From Gemmatirosa kalamazoonensis (GTDB taxonomy: Bacteria; Gemmatimonadota; Gemmatimonadetes; Gemmatimonadales; Gemmatimonadaceae), in contig NZ_CP007128.1 in assembly GCF_000522985.1 (NCBI RefSeq), positions 1,782,220 through 1,846,219 of the forward strand: a stretch of 64,000 nt of DNA. The letters are read 5' to 3'. Below the pieces are notes generated by a model. The model did no database searches. It was not told the origin of the DNA and was given only the letters and a program-made list of their open reading frames with translations. A program made the position numbers and the translations under genes. Below are positions 5,838 to 30,856 of this stretch, one piece after another. Each line of letters opens with the position of its first letter. Positions within the stretch are counted from its first letter, which is position 1.

Positions 5838-6215
5838 ATGCATCGAGCGACCCTTCTTCTGACACTCCTCGTCGCCGCGCCGCCGGCGTGGAAGACCGTC
5901 GGCCACACCGGCGACGGCAACCCGGTGCAGGTCGACCCGAAGAGCGTGAAGCGCAAGGGCACCACCGTCGACGCGACGGTGCGCGTGCCGTTCCTGAAGC
6001 CGAAGAAGATGGCGGGCGGGAACGTCACGAGCTCGATCACGAAGGTCACGTTCGACTGCGCGAAGGAGACCGTCGCGATCAAGGAGTACACGTACTACTT
6101 CGACGAGAAGACGCGAAAGATCTTCCAGCACCAGGTCGCGCAGACGCCCGGCTTCGCGCCCGTCATGGGCGGGTCGATGACGAAGGTGGCGTACGACGAG
6201 CTGTGCAAGAGGTAG
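5838..6215 (+). CDS. Surface-adhesin E-like exported protein
   Basis: The product has 125 residues, starting with a short signal peptide. The mature part has the pattern of the surface-adhesin protein E-like family: an early Trp, then VQVDPKSVKRKG, a basic middle, TFDCAKETVAIKEYTYY, and a C-terminal YDELCKR. Two cysteines (FDC and ELC) could form a disulfide. Family members are small exported proteins of poorly defined role. It may be cotranscribed with namZ, although a hairpin lies between them. Confidence 0.65.
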   Translation: MHRATLLLTLLVAAPPAWKTVGHTGDGNPVQVDPKSVKRKGTTVDATVRVPFLKPKKMAGGNVTSSITKVTFDCAKETVAIKEYTYYFDEKTRKIFQHQVAQTPGFAPVMGGSMTKVAYDELCKR

Positions 6216-6334
6216 GGCAGGAGGGCGGGAGGGCAGGAGGGCAGGAGGGCAGGCGGGCCTAACGACTTTCCTGCCCTCCTGCCCTCCTGCCCTCCTGCCC
6301 TCCTGCCCTCCTGCCCTCCTGCCCTCCTGCCCTC
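6214..6334. repeat. Long hairpin of GGGCAGGA units between convergent genes
   Basis: Left-arm GGGCAGGA-type units up to about 6253 face a longer right arm of CTCCTGCC units up to 6334. The loop contains GCCTAAC. The right arm has more units than the left, as expected if unit number changes by slippage. It begins at the stop of the plus-strand gene and ends at the stop of the penicillin-acylase-like gene. Confidence 0.88.
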
Positions 6335-23574: not shown

Positions 23575-26148
23575 TCATCGCGCGGCGGCCAGCGCGAGCA
23601 CGTCGTTCAGCACGCCCGCCGCGGTGACCGCGGGACCCGCGCCGGGCCCGGTGATGACGAGCGGCCGCTCGTGGTAGCGCTTCGTCGTGAACACGAACTG
23701 GTTGTCCGTCCCCGCGAGCCCCGCGAGCGGACTCGCCGCGTCGATCTCGGCGATGCCGACGCGCGCCGACTGCGGCGTCACCGACGCGTGGTAGCGCAGC
23801 ACCGTGCCGCGCTCGCGCGCCGATTCCACGCGGCGCGCCCACGGCTCGTCGAGCTCCTCGAGGCGCGCGAGGAAGTCGTCGAGCGCGACGTCGCGCAGCC
23901 CCGCCGGCACGAGCGACTCCACCGGCAGGTCGGCGAGCGCGCCGCGCCAGCCGACGAGACGCGCGAGGATCACCGCCTTGCGCGCGACATCCTGGCCCGA
24001 GAGGTCGTCGCGCGGGTCGGGCTCGGTGTACCCGCGCGCCATCGCGTCGCGCAGCGCCTCGGAGAAGCGACGCCCCGCGCGCAGCTCGGCGAACAGGAAC
24101 CCGAGCGTCCCCGACGGACAGCCGTCGATGCGCACGATCGTGTCGCCGCTCTCGGCGAGCTTGCGGATCGTGTCGATGACGGGAAGCCCGGCGCCGACCG
24201 TCGCCTCGTGTCTGACGCGTCGGCCTAACGCCGCGGCCTCCGCGAGGATCCCCTCGTTCGACACGTCGGGCGCTTCGGCGATCGGGCGCTTGTTCGCGAG
24301 CACGAGGTCCATGCCGTGCCGCGCGGCGGCGGCGAGCAGCGCGCTCGTGTCGCCGGCGGTGACGTCGACGAGGATCGGGCGCGAGAGCGCGTGCGCGGCG
24401 ACGCGCTCCACCGCCTCCGCCGGGCCCGCACGCGAACCCTTCGGCGCGTCGGCGAGCGCGCCGCCCTTCGCCTTGTGCGCGGCGAGCCGCTGCAGCCGCC
24501 GCGGCGAGAAGCCGTCGGGGTCGAACACGAAGCCCGTCCGGTCGAGCACCGCGACGACGCGCACCGGTGCGCCGTCGTTGGGCTCCGGCTGCCGCGCGAT
24601 CTGCGCCGCGAGCTCGCGTCCCACGCGGCCGAAGCCTAACAGAATGACGTCGGCGTGCGCCGGCGTCGCGGCGCGCCCCCCGCCGATGCGATCGAGGCGG
24701 AACGCGTCGTGCGCGGCGCGCTGCGCGGCCGGCGCGTCCTCGGCGGCCACGACGACGCTGATGTTGAGCTCCGACGAGCCCTGCGCGATCGCGATCACGT
24801 TCACGCCCGCCTCCGCCAGCGCGCCGAACAAGCGCGCGGCGATGCCCGGCGTGCCCGCCATGCCGCTGCCGACCACCGCCACCGTCGCCACCGACGGCGC
24901 GAGGTCGAGCGACTCGATCTCGCCGCGCGCCAGCTCCAGCGCGAACGTCTCGCGCAGCGCGGCGAGCGCGACGTGCGCCGTCGCCGACGGGATGCCAAGG
25001 CAGATCGACTGCTCCGACGACGCCTGCGAGATGAGCGAGACCGACACGCCGGTGCGCTCGAGCGCCGCGAACGCGCGCGCCGCGATGCCCGGCACGCCGG
25101 CCATGCCGGTGCCGCGCACCGTGACGAGCGCCTGCGCGGGGAGCGCGGAGACCGCCTTCACCGGATGCTCGCGCCCCGCGCGCGGCCCGCGCCGCTCCGG
25201 CCCGACGACGATGCGCGTCCCCTCGCCCGCCGGATCGTCGAACGGCCGCAGCCAGAGCTGCGTGCCGCCGGCAGCGGCGCCGCCGTTAGGCGCGGCGGGC
25301 ATCGCGAGCGGGATCAGCGCGCGCGGGTGCAGCACCTTCGCGCCGTGGTAGGCGAGCTCGCCGGCCTCGCGCGCGTGCAGCGCGGGGATCACGCGCGCAC
25401 CGGGCACGACGCGCGGATCGGCGGTCAGCAGCCCCGGCACATCCTTCCACAGGATCACCTCGCGCGCGCCGAGCGCGCGGCCGAGCGTCGTCGCCGTGAG
25501 ATCGGAGCCGCCGCGGCCGAGCGTGACGAGCGCCGGCGCGTGGTGTGTCGGATCGGCCGGATCGTCCGGCGCCGAGCCGATGAAGCCGGGGAGCACTGGG
25601 ACGACGCCGGCGCGGACGAGCGGCAGCAGCACGCGGCGCGCGGCCTCGGTCGTGCGCGCGAGGTCGGGGAACGCGTTACCCGCGCGCCCGTCGGTCGCGA
25701 TGACGTCCACCGCGTCGACGTACTTCGCGCGCACGCCCGCCTCGGCGAGCGCGGCGACCATGCACCAGGCGGCGAGCCGCTCGCCGCGCGACACGACGAC
25801 GTCGGTGATCGCGGGCGAGAGCTGGCGCAGCGCGGTGAGCCCGACGACGACGCGCGACAGCTCGTCGAACGCCTCCTCCACCGTGTGCTCGAGCGCCTCG
25901 TCGCCGAACGCGCGCGCGACCTCGTGGTGGCGCAGCGAGAGCGCGGTGGCGCCGCGGCTCGCTCCCTCGCCGTCCCCGGCGGCGGCGCGCCGCGCGACGT
26001 CCAGCAGCGCGTCGGTCGCGCCGCGGAGCGCGGAGACGACGACCACGGGTGTGCCGCCCCCCGCGGACATGACGACGCGCGCGGCGCGCCGCACGGCCTC
26101 GGCGTCGGCGAGGATGGAGCCGCCGACCTTGTGGACGACGAGGGACAT
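23575..26148 (-). CDS. thrA: Bifunctional aspartokinase/homoserine dehydrogenase
   Basis: The product has 857 residues. Aspartokinase comes first (about 1-290, opening MSLVVHKVGGS, with GRGGSDLTATTLGRAL). Two ACT-type regulatory units follow, near 341 (TVRGTGMAGVPGIAARAF) and 419 (VVGSGMAGTPGIAARLF). Homoserine dehydrogenase starts near 500 (ILLGFGRVGREL) and has LANKRPIA near 619 and ATVGAGLPVIDT. It makes both the first and third steps of the threonine/methionine branch, probably with feedback control through the ACT units. The ATG at 26148 fits the kinase N-terminus; 32 upstream codons are open but unlikely. Confidence 0.93.
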   Translation of the reverse strand: MSLVVHKVGGSILADAEAVRRAARVVMSAGGGTPVVVVSALRGATDALLDVARRAAAGDGEGASRGATALSLRHHEVARAFGDEALEHTVEEAFDELSRVVVGLTALRQLSPAITDVVVSRGERLAAWCMVAALAEAGVRAKYVDAVDVIATDGRAGNAFPDLARTTEAARRVLLPLVRAGVVPVLPGFIGSAPDDPADPTHHAPALVTLGRGGSDLTATTLGRALGAREVILWKDVPGLLTADPRVVPGARVIPALHAREAGELAYHGAKVLHPRALIPLAMPAAPNGGAAAGGTQLWLRPFDDPAGEGTRIVVGPERRGPRAGREHPVKAVSALPAQALVTVRGTGMAGVPGIAARAFAALERTGVSVSLISQASSEQSICLGIPSATAHVALAALRETFALELARGEIESLDLAPSVATVAVVGSGMAGTPGIAARLFGALAEAGVNVIAIAQGSSELNISVVVAAEDAPAAQRAAHDAFRLDRIGGGRAATPAHADVILLGFGRVGRELAAQIARQPEPNDGAPVRVVAVLDRTGFVFDPDGFSPRRLQRLAAHKAKGGALADAPKGSRAGPAEAVERVAAHALSRPILVDVTAGDTSALLAAAARHGMDLVLANKRPIAEAPDVSNEGILAEAAALGRRVRHEATVGAGLPVIDTIRKLAESGDTIVRIDGCPSGTLGFLFAELRAGRRFSEALRDAMARGYTEPDPRDDLSGQDVARKAVILARLVGWRGALADLPVESLVPAGLRDVALDDFLARLEELDEPWARRVESARERGTVLRYHASVTPQSARVGIAEIDAASPLAGLAGTDNQFVFTTKRYHERPLVITGPGAGPAVTAAGVLNDVLALAAAR

Positions 26149-26250
26149 CGGCCTGTCCTGACGGGGAGGGACACGAAGCGCGGCCACCCGGGTTCGGGAG
26201 GTCGCGCGAGTCCGATGGATGCCAGGACCGGGAGCCGCCGTCAAGTGAGA

Positions 26251-26328
26251 GGGCAGGAGGGCAGGAGCGCGGGAGGGCAGGAGAATCCGAAGATCTCCTG
26301 CCCTCCTGCGCTCCTGCCCTCCTGCCCT
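26251..26328. repeat. GGGCAGGA-unit hairpin with UUCG-type loop
   Basis: Four units face four. The variant unit (GCGCGGGA left, CTCCTGCG right) sits second from the loop in both arms. On the minus strand, the direction in which the flanking genes are read, the loop reads ATCTTCGGAT, a C(UUCG)G tetraloop. It lies upstream of thrA and downstream of the gene ending at 26332. Confidence 0.88.
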
Positions 26329-28947: not shown

Positions 28948-29307
28948 TCAGCGCTCCCCGCGATACACGCATCCGGTCGTACACGTCTCCCGCACGACGA
29001 TCGCCGACAGCCCCGGCAGCCAGGGCAGCAGGCGGTCCCAGATCCACCGCGCGAGGACCTCGCTCGTCGGGTTCTCGAGCCCCGCGATCTCGTTCAGGTA
29101 GCGGTGGTCGAGCGCCTCGTCGAGCGGCTGCCAGGCCGTCTTCAGGTCGCCGAAGTCCATCACCCACCCCTCCGGCTCCCGCACGGCCCCGGCGACGTGC
29201 ACCTCGACCCGGAACGAGTGCCCGTGCAGCCGCGCGCACTTGTGCCCCGGCGGCACGTTCGGCAGCCGGTGCGCGGCCTCGAACGTGAATTCCTTCCAGA
29301 TCTCCAT
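28948..29307 (-). CDS. queD: 6-carboxy-tetrahydropterin synthase (QueD/PTPS family)
   Basis: The product has 119 residues, the normal QueD length. The zinc ligands are His13 (FEAAHRLP) and His28/His30 (LHGHSF), and the catalytic Cys24 lies in [21 protein letters not shown] and LDHRYLNEI blocks and the [14 protein letters not shown] helix are intact. It converts dihydroneopterin triphosphate toward 6-carboxytetrahydropterin, a step in queuosine (7-deazaguanine) synthesis. No other queuosine genes are adjacent. The ATG at 29307 fits the family start; the longer open frame upstream reads through a hairpin repeat. Confidence 0.9.
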
Positions 29308-29320
29308 GGGTGAGAAGCTA

Positions 29321-29390
29321 GGGCAGGAGGGCAGGAGCGCAGGAGGGCAGGAGATCTTCGGATTCTCCTGCCCTCTCGCCCTCCTGCCCT
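29321..29390. repeat. GGGCAGGA-unit hairpin in a divergent promoter region
   Basis: Four units (variant GCGCAGGA second from the loop) face a right arm with one altered unit (CTCTCGCC). The loop is ATCTTCGGAT, a C(UUCG)G tetraloop when read on the plus strand. It is unusual because it lies between the divergent queD and metK rather than at gene ends. Confidence 0.85.
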
Positions 29391-29408
29391 GTCGGTGAGG
29401 CGCCACAC

Positions 29409-29437
29409 TTGGCCCGACCGCGTCCGCGCCTTAGAAT
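29409..29437 (+). promoter_or_regulatory. Sigma-70-type promoter for metK
   Basis: TTGGCC (29409-29414) and TAGAAT (29432-29437) are separated by exactly 17 bp. This predicts transcription starting about 29443-29446, at the first stem of the metK leader. Confidence 0.55.
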
Positions 29438-29440
29438 GGT

Positions 29441-29604
29441 CCCCGGCGCGGCGATTTCCCCGATTTGACGGACCGCGCCGCCGGGGGACGTGCTCCCCCG
29501 TCCGGATTCCGTCTAAGTCGCGGCACCCTGCGGCCCGCGACCCACCGTCGCGGGCCGCTCGTCGTTCGAGCGGCGCGTGGCGTCACCACAGCGCCCATCT
29601 CTCG
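29441..29604 (+). ncRNA. Structured 5' leader of metK (candidate cis-regulatory RNA)
   Basis: About 160 nt lie between the predicted start and the metK ATG. CCCCGGCG (29441-29448) can pair with CGCCGGGG (29479-29486). GACGGA near 29468 can pair with TCCGTC near 29508. A perfect 11-bp stem, GCGGCCCGCGA (29530-29540) with TCGCGGGCCGC (29548-29558), and a GCTCG/CGAGC stem (29557-29571) follow. The last stem could alternate with the 11-bp stem because they share two bases. It does not match the SAM-I consensus. A SAM-sensing or translation-control role is inferred only from position. Confidence 0.4.
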
Positions 29605-30750
29605 ATGTCTGCCACCGCCCGTCCCGACCAGCAGTACGACGTCGCGCTCGACGCCCTCCCGGCCACCTACATCTTCTCGTCGGAGAGCGTGACCGAGGGG
29701 CACCCGGACAAGGTCTGCGACTTCATCGCCGACTCGATCCTCGACGCGCACCTCGCGCAGGATCCCCGCGCCCGCGTGGCGTGCGAGGTGCTCGTGAAGG
29801 ATGGCAACGTCGTCCTCGCCGGCGAGATCACCTCCGAGGCGAAGGACGTCGACTACGAGGCGATCGTCCGCCGCGCGATCGAGGAGATCGGCTACGTCGA
29901 CGCGAACGAGGCGTTCCACGCCGCCGGCGTGAAGGTCACCGTGCTGCTCTCGCAGCAGTCGGGTCACATCGCGCAGGGCGTGGACACGGGCGGCGCCGGC
30001 GACCAGGGGATCATGTTCGGCTACGCGACCGACGAGACCGAGGAGCTCATGCCGCTCCCGATCCTGCTCTCGCACCGCCTGTCGCGGCTCATCGCCGAGG
30101 ACCGCAAGGCCGGCCGCAAGGCGTGGCTGCGTCCCGACGCGAAGACGCAGGTGTCGGTGGAGTACGAGGGGAACACGCCCGTCGCCGTGCGCACGGTGCT
30201 CGTCTCCACGCAGCACGCCGAGGACGTGTCGCAGGAGGAGATCAAGGCGTACGTGGCGACCGACCTCGTGCCGCGTGCGTTAGGCACCTGGTATCGCGAC
30301 GACATCGAGATCCTCGTCAACCCGACGGGCATCTTCGCGATCGGCGGCCCGTCGGCCGACGCCGGCGTGACCGGCCGCAAGATCATCGTCGACACGTACG
30401 GCGGCGCGGGCCGTCACGGCGGCGGCGCGTTCAGCGGCAAGGATCCGTCGAAGGTCGACCGCTCGGGCGCGTACTTCGGCCGCTTCGTCGCGCGGCAGCT
30501 CGTGAAGGCGGGGCTGGCGCGCAAGGCGGAGGTGCAGGTCGCGTACGCGATCGGCCGCGCCGAGCCGGTGTCGGTGCGCGTGGACACGTTCGGGACCGGC
30601 GACGCGCGCGCCGCCGAGGCGTACGTGCGCCAGAACTTCGACTTCCGGCCTAACGCGATCATCGAGCGCCTGGGCCTGCGCCGGCCGATCTACCGCACGA
30701 CGACGAACTACGGTCACTTCGGCCGCACCGGGCTGCCCTGGGAGGCCTGA
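29605..30750 (+). CDS. metK: S-adenosylmethionine synthetase
   Basis: The product has 381 residues, the normal MetK length. Signature blocks are complete: SVTEGHPDKVCD, GAGDQGIMFGYA, and the phosphate loop GGGAFSGKDPSKVDRS; the C-terminal YGHFGRTGLPWE is also typical. It makes SAM from methionine and ATP as a tetramer in the cytoplasm. The ATG at 29605 gives the standard N-terminus. No strong ribosome site precedes it, so the structured leader may affect initiation. Confidence 0.95.
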   Translation: MSATARPDQQYDVALDALPATYIFSSESVTEGHPDKVCDFIADSILDAHLAQDPRARVACEVLVKDGNVVLAGEITSEAKDVDYEAIVRRAIEEIGYVDANEAFHAAGVKVTVLLSQQSGHIAQGVDTGGAGDQGIMFGYATDETEELMPLPILLSHRLSRLIAEDRKAGRKAWLRPDAKTQVSVEYEGNTPVAVRTVLVSTQHAEDVSQEEIKAYVATDLVPRALGTWYRDDIEILVNPTGIFAIGGPSADAGVTGRKIIVDTYGGAGRHGGGAFSGKDPSKVDRSGAYFGRFVARQLVKAGLARKAEVQVAYAIGRAEPVSVRVDTFGTGDARAAEAYVRQNFDFRPNAIIERLGLRRPIYRTTTNYGHFGRTGLPWEA

Positions 30751-30759
30751 TCGTTTCGA

Positions 30760-30856
30760 GGGCAGGAGGGCAGGAGGGCAGGAGGGCAGGAGAGCTTCGG
30801 ACTCTCCTGCCCTCCTGCCCTCTTGCCCTCCTGCCCTTTTGCCCTCTTGCCCTCTC
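30760..30856. repeat. GGGCAGGA-unit hairpin downstream of metK
   Basis: Left units face a longer right arm in which several CTCCTGCC units have become CTTGCC or TTTGCC. The loop AGAGCTTCGGACTCT contains CTTCGG. It lies 10 bp after the metK stop and is a good terminator candidate. Confidence 0.85.

Follow-up and report, generated by a model that had tools for sequence, protein, structure and literature searches.

A conserved metK leader RNA of Gemmatimonadota, probably a third branch of the SAM-II/SAM-V riboswitch superfamily

The metK gene analysed here lies in a 64,000-nucleotide stretch of Gemmatirosa kalamazoonensis DNA (the window, from genome G000; all coordinates are window positions), and its leader is a conserved, structured, riboswitch-like RNA. 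An aptamer-like pseudoknot of helices P1, P2 and P3 (29445–29520) opens at the predicted transcription start and is followed by a terminator-like hairpin. Upstream, a divergent QueD-like gene (28948–29307, minus strand) encodes a member of the 6-pyruvoyl tetrahydropterin synthase family (PF01242, 129.6 bits), and a fused aspartokinase-homoserine dehydrogenase (23575–26175, minus strand; AA_kinase, ACT and Homoserine_dh), an enzyme of the methionine pathway, lies about 3.4 kb from metK. The window also carries dispersed hairpin repeats, which are inverted arrays of the 8-base unit GGGCAGGA (36 matches, 0 expected), at 2243–2325, 6215–6332, 26251–26327, 29321–29389 and 30760–30844; two of them flank metK. 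The features of the leader and its gene are as follows.

29409–29437, plus strand: promoter-like site TTGGCC-17-TAGAAT from a promoter scan, with its predicted start at P1
29445–29451, plus strand: P1 5′ strand, GGCGCGG (two-sided changes at 7/7 P1 pairs among 64 distinct sequences)
29453–29457, plus strand: loop L1, GATTT, aligned with SAM-II G8 A9 U10 U11 U12 (pocket roles as reported in PMC3764141)
29461–29472, plus strand: P2 5′ strand, CGATTTGACGGA (alignment, covariation and folding); 29464 is position 19, and TTG at 29465–29467 is SAM-II U20 U21 G22
29473–29479, plus strand: P1 3′ strand, CCGCGCC, in conserved pairing with 29445–29451
29483–29499, plus strand: P3 hairpin in L3, GGGGGA-CGTGC-TCCCCC (folding)
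29508–29520, plus strand: P2 3′ strand, TCCGTC-T-AAGTCG (alignment and covariation); 29513 is C43, 29514 the bulged U44, 29515–29516 A45 A46, and at 29517 a G replaces A47
29517–29523, plus strand: putative antiterminator strand GTCGCGG, complementary to CCGCGAC at 29535–29541 (duplex of −12.0 kcal/mol)
29530–29558, plus strand: terminator-like hairpin of 12 bp (29530–29541/29547–29558; folding), then a poor U-tract, TCGTCGTTC
29554–29574, plus strand: second hairpin (29554–29561/29567–29574; −15.3 kcal/mol), sharing 5 nt with the 3′ arm of the terminator
29605–30750, plus strand: metK of a minority type, 381 aa (TIGR01034, 488.6 bits against a cut-off of 309.4; clade assigned by tree)

The promoter-like site is the sole one between 29200 and 29900 (shuffle mean 0.0), and it predicts a transcription start at about 29443–29445, the first base of the conserved P1. 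Folding energy of the leader is below that of shuffled sequences (z −3.60, with 0/200 shuffles as low). The original prediction, drawn from the window's letters, placed a promoter at an 8-bp stem and described a perfect 11-bp stem and a competing stem sharing two bases with it. Promoter and 8-bp stem (29441–29448/29479–29486) both exist, but relatives conserve the overlapping P1 (29445–29451/29473–29479); the 11-bp hairpin turns out to have 12 bp, and the competing stem shares five bases with it rather than two. All three stems are present, although the conserved set consists of P1, P2, P3 and the terminator and does not include the 8-bp stem as drawn. Absent from that description were P2 (29461–29472/29508–29520) and the pairing of the aptamer tail with the terminator 5′ arm. 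Reading the window sequence, we saw no evident Shine-Dalgarno ahead of the metK ATG.

Searches with Rfam bore out the statement that no recognised SAM family lies at the leader. No Rfam family exceeded its threshold anywhere in the 64-kb window, and the 71 matches obtained at E ≤ 10 for 29300–29750 include no SAM family; sub-threshold matches on the leader region were mostly miRNA models on the repeat hairpin at 29321–29390. SAM-I (RF00162) gave no match at the metK leader in these window searches, and we set aside SAM-I, SAM-IV, SAM-VI, SAM/SAH and SAM-Chlorobi because none of them matched. In genome searches, which score the best first-look candidates (for RF00521 the best 150 per genome), SAM-II (RF00521) passed its gathering cut-off somewhere in 12/14 genomes and never at the metK leader. 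RF01726 (SAM-II long loops) passed its cut-off in 0/14 genomes, all 8 of its weak matches falling at ordinary SAM-II sites and none at the metK leader, and RF01826 (SAM-V) matched in 0/10 genomes at E ≤ 10. A search of the leader against plasmids was likewise without a match.

We built a covariance model, R1, from 12 leaders including that of the window and ran it over 395 Gemmatimonadota genomes, finding a match at E ≤ 0.1 in 71 of them. At E below 1e-5 the matches listed comprise 62 places in 57 genomes and fall into families f1 to f4. Our alignment, A4, holds 66 sequences (64 distinct): these 62 places, three family members from outside the draw, and the weaker L135 (E 6e-5), retained despite having neither A45 nor A46. 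Left out as probable chance were 9 of 75 rows weaker than E 1e-4 (L136–L143 and the second one in L091), and fourteen further weak R1 rows (E 0.028–0.097) are not in A4 either. R1 gives no ordinary SAM-II match in L053, L062 and L066. To avoid circularity, we made a second model, R2, from 16 other leaders, all found by R1 and none of them the window or a metK leader of f1, the window's family; it scores the window (29445–29527) at 63.6 bits, E 1.5e-11, and the next match in the 64 kb has E 0.73.

A strict exact pattern run over 84,980 species returned 47 stretches, of which 41 repeat A4 sequences. Titles naming Gemmatimonadota or one of its genera account for 44, and two lie in untitled contigs equal in length to two contigs of the sampled genome G395. 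The last, L166, comes from a 'Kuenenia' MAG; we take it as a binning error because its metX is 100% identical to that of the Gemmatimonadota locus L084. The variant has thus so far been seen only in Gemmatimonadota, on the basis of R1 within the phylum and the strict exact pattern outside it. We found no earlier description of it in the titles and abstract openings of open PMC articles that name a riboswitch together with Gemmatimonadota, Gemmatimonadetes or Gemmatimonas, PMC9331176 among them.

Covariation across relatives, which had been proposed as the deciding check on the structure, came out in its favour: all 7 pairs of P1 and 3/12 pairs of P2 covary in A4. Over the 64 distinct rows, P1 and P2 are paired in 96.5% of cells against 93.2% in shuffles, ten pairs show two-sided changes against 3.4, and the covariation score is 0.189 against 0.122, a level reached by 0/500 shuffles. 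Relatedness among the sequences is lost in such shuffles but preserved when the partners are slid by 1–3 columns, which lowers pairing to 26–52%. Because the model to which A4 was fitted contained P2 but lacked P1, the P2 counts are biased in favour of the structure, a bias from which those of P1 are free; five pairs of P2 are invariant and hence uninformative. Some outer pairs are weak, namely 1–39 of P1 (failing in 15/64 rows), 32–94 of P2 (15/64) and 21–106 of P2 (8). Between P1 and P2, the P3 hairpin has two-sided changes in relatives as judged by eye in 15 of the 66 sequences.

The aligned bases place the variant next to SAM-II, whose conserved pocket is reported to consist of U10, U11, U12, U20, U21, G22, C23, G42, C43, U44, A45, A46 and A47, with U44 contacting the adenine, U11 and U21 the sulfonium, and A47 the amino and carboxylate groups (PMC3764141). 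U10–U12, U21, G22, C43 and U44 are kept in 66/66 sequences, so that the three T of L1 are invariant (its A is A in 50/66), and U20, A45 and A46 are kept in 65/66, the exception each time being L135. Position 47 is G in 66/66. Position 19, which faces it, is U in 37 and C in 29 of the 66, and the C23–G42 pair is replaced, by A–U in 59/64 distinct rows, G–C in 2, G–U in 2 and U–A in 1. With these bases kept and G47 present throughout, the pocket is of SAM-II type but differs at one base that contacts the ligand. That base sits where SAM is normally gripped, which makes the exact ligand worth testing; in SAM-V, inosine at the equivalent of base 47 is reported to have severely lowered SAM binding (PMC6061858). 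The leader that had been called unrecognised indeed has no Rfam match, but its pocket bases and pseudoknot topology allow it to be recognised as a divergent relative within the SAM-II/SAM-V superfamily.

The variant accompanies a particular kind of metK. A metK match is present in 141 of 148 genomes of the window's family; among the matches listed, the window type (70–74% identity) occurs in at least 13 other genomes and the common type has about 55–61% identity. The window's genome holds both types, the common one at G000:C2:3638528–3639655 (L032), where the match crosses one TGA that may precede the true start. The variant RNA stands ahead of 12/12 type-2 metK genes with upstream DNA, and 35 loci of other metK genes have no R1 match at E below 0.02. 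In a midpoint-rooted tree of 50 MetK proteins, with one long branch (L046), 15 aptamer-linked proteins (of 18) form one clade with 100/100 support and the 35 others fall outside it.

Downstream of the 66 leaders are metK in 18 cases, metY/metX in 23, an OsmC gene (PF02566) with a MetY-like gene in 1 and a peroxiredoxin gene in 1 (207 bits, just under the NCBIfam cut-off of 211). L099 has no recognised gene after its leader, although the first codons resemble metY by eye. The reference MetY exceeds the TIGR01326 cut-off (595 bits); the best matches of the reference MetX are MetX models, below their cut-offs (264 bits of 500). A second RNA element follows in 15/66, and other genes without known family in 7/66. 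Downstream of the variant we also noted a protein family with FRP..Y and GEYLP.Y.PGE.EIAR motifs (L130:559-1356, L111:584-1252 and L127:550-1341); the L111 and L130 proteins have no Pfam or NCBIfam match, and structure prediction for a downstream protein without known family was poor (pLDDT 41.9).

Many leaders are compound. Each of the 23 metY/metX leaders has an ordinary SAM-II aptamer after the variant; this aptamer exceeds the RF00521 cut-off in 6/6 of those given to the Rfam search, and it has A at 47 in 23/23, a count made with a search pattern that requires GCTAA just before. In two examples (L109:374-623 and L119:347-611) a terminator-like hairpin lies between variant and SAM-II. In 15 other leaders the variant is followed by a SAM-I-like second element of about 150–190 nt, with two-sided changes at 15/40 predicted pairs in an alignment of 13 sequences (A7; L112:532-707, L081:1629-1817, L087:1305-1459 and ten more). 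None of seven loci with this element reached the SAM-I gathering threshold; the one in L112, the sole locus tested singly, scored 27.9 bits against 44.4. Because the genes after it are without known family where tested, the second element may be a divergent class related to SAM-I, perhaps sensing another ligand.

Most leaders also carry the parts of an expression platform. After the aptamer, 53/66 have a hairpin resembling a terminator, with four or more T in nine (5.5 expected), leaving 13/66 without such a site by the same test, and a promoter-like site (at least 8/12) lies within 50 nt before P1 in 43/66 against 2.4 expected from shuffles. An earlier terminator/antiterminator finder (58/66 with a stem of 8 bp or more, 42 with four or more U, 45 with a pairing of five or more) was set aside, as it had mis-centred some hairpins including that of the window. 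Complementarity of the tail to the terminator exceeds that of shuffled tails only modestly (5.45 versus 4.57 in 53 of 66 leaders). In the window this pairing is a perfect 7 bp, of −12.8 kcal/mol when folded before the 3′ arm is made, and the terminator hairpin has −27.3 kcal/mol. The U-tract TCGTCGTTC is poor and a stricter terminator scan does not call the hairpin at 29530–29558, so we infer termination there; among relatives, L005 has a good U-tract.

We propose a mechanism modelled on the OFF switch proposed for SAM-II (PMC1273637). Transcription would begin at P1, the RNA would fold into this helix and the P2 pseudoknot, and loop L1 (GAUUU) would pack against P2 to make the binding site of an S-adenosyl ligand, for which SAM is the likeliest candidate. 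Ligand binding would hold the P2 3′ strand, including GUCG at 29517–29520, in the aptamer, allowing the terminator hairpin (29530–29558) to form and stop transcription before metK. Without ligand, the tail GUCGCGG (29517–29523) would instead pair with CCGCGAC (29535–29541) in the terminator 5′ arm and RNA polymerase would read on. The net effect would be feedback by SAM on its own synthetase, and the earlier reading of a structured metK leader that probably switches was right in direction.

We think it likely that the SAM-II/SAM-V superfamily has a third branch, so far seen only in Gemmatimonadota, to which this leader belongs and which acts as an OFF switch by termination and probably senses SAM. 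Gene context and the kept sulfonium site suggest SAM as the probable ligand; its fit at the aminoacyl end is doubtful. Several observations speak against this reading as a whole: G47 in 66/66, the replaced C23–G42, a hairpin loop where an A-rich L3 would be, the lack of an Rfam SAM match, the weak outer pairs, the window's poor U-tract, the modest tail complementarity, the 13/66 leaders without a terminator-like site, and the 22/66 copies followed by a second RNA element or by genes of no known family. The same 22 copies could be claimed for a conserved leader that is bound by a protein, or is a plain attenuator or 5′ stabiliser, with no metabolite aptamer. That explanation we consider very improbable, since it would make a coincidence of three things at once: the match to the SAM-II pocket with its spacing, the pseudoknot, and the link to the Met/SAM regulon. 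It is also rather unlikely that the element is decaying in this species, its aptamer kept and its expression platform lost, leaving metK effectively constitutive with the second metK as a backup. The poor U-tract missed by the stricter scan, and the common-type metK elsewhere in the genome, fit such decay; the aptamer (63.6 bits with R2), promoter position and 12-bp stem are intact and the antiterminator pairing is perfect over 7 bp, all of which argue against it.

A further alternative concerns the ligand. The fold could be the same and the ligand an S-adenosyl compound with a different tail (e.g. decarboxylated SAM or SAH), which would make the metY/metX tandems a two-input gate; this we regard as doubtful but possible. 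We give a similarly tentative place to a changed-ligand class on the SAM-II/SAM-V scaffold in which G47, with C or U at 19 as its partner, recognises another tail. In favour of a change, the invariant G47 stands where SAM-II and SAM-V hold the aminoacyl group by A47 and A50, and the SAM-II partner keeps A47 in every tandem leader. Genomes with type-2 metK put the variant before metK and ordinary SAM-II before other genes: among 12 readable loci of 15, MetH-like genes follow SAM-II in 8, MetF in one, MetX in two and another gene in one (protein models were applied to two MetH, the MetF, both MetX and the other). Moreover, some variants of the SAM-I aptamer are reported to reject SAM and to respond to spermidine instead (PMC10853860). 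Set against this, the sulfonium-facing U11·A45–U21 triple is kept, and a charged sulfur in the ligand is therefore likely; metK, metY and metX make up a classic SAM regulon; and C–G or U·G at 19–47 would leave the Hoogsteen edge of G free for a bond from the amine of SAM. The tandems alone are no proof of a second ligand, because tandems of different SAM classes sensing the same ligand are reported (PMC9481103), and we reject them as such.

If SAM is the ligand, as we favour, or if it has shifted, the SAM-II/SAM-V pseudoknot family gains a branch that Rfam 15 misses and that occurs, among the matches listed at E below 1e-5, in 57/395 sampled Gemmatimonadota genomes. Because a base is fixed where a laboratory substitution affected SAM binding, the branch is a natural test of how so small an aptamer recognises SAM at its methionine end or moves to another ligand. 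The repeated SAM-II tandems allow the same-ligand and two-ligand cases to be addressed within one RNA. Had the ligand changed, Gemmatimonadota would use the variant alone on metK, and its stacking before ordinary SAM-II (23 leaders) or the SAM-I-like element (15) would provide natural two-input gates on methionine genes and genes without known family.

Among known systems the variant most resembles SAM-II. Both have an H-type pseudoknot of P1 and P2, backed by covariation in each helix here, with one base and then GAUUU after P1 and a C-U-A-A with a bulged U44, and in both the context is methionine/SAM genes (42/66 for the variant). The seven bases to UUG we take to be the same spacing as in the SAM-II structure 2QWY. 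A promoter just ahead of P1 and a terminator after P2 also follow the layout reported for SAM-II (PMC1273637). Unlike SAM-II, the variant has G at 47, a replaced C23–G42, a P2 that is longer on the P1 side and, in place of an A-rich L3, the hairpin P3; and RF00521 does not match it. SAM-II long loops (RF01726), by name a SAM-II core with enlarged loops and listed for Bacteroidetes and marine sources (PMC2864571), differs in passing its cut-off in none of the 14 genomes and in giving no weak match at the metK leader. The SAM/SAH riboswitch and the SAM-Chlorobi motif are likewise reported from metK leaders (PMC2864571), but neither has an Rfam match here. SAM-V (RF01826) shares the pocket and has a P3 helix, with a P2 whose length differs from that of SAM-II (PMC6061858); it is translational, with the Shine-Dalgarno in P2a, whereas the variant has a terminator-like hairpin (53/66), a G at SAM-V A50 and no RF01826 match. 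Since the Rfam models for SAM-II, its long-loop form and SAM-V all miss these leaders, and the pocket is changed at one base, we place the variant in neither family and regard it as probably the superfamily's third branch, with a SAM-II-like mode of action.
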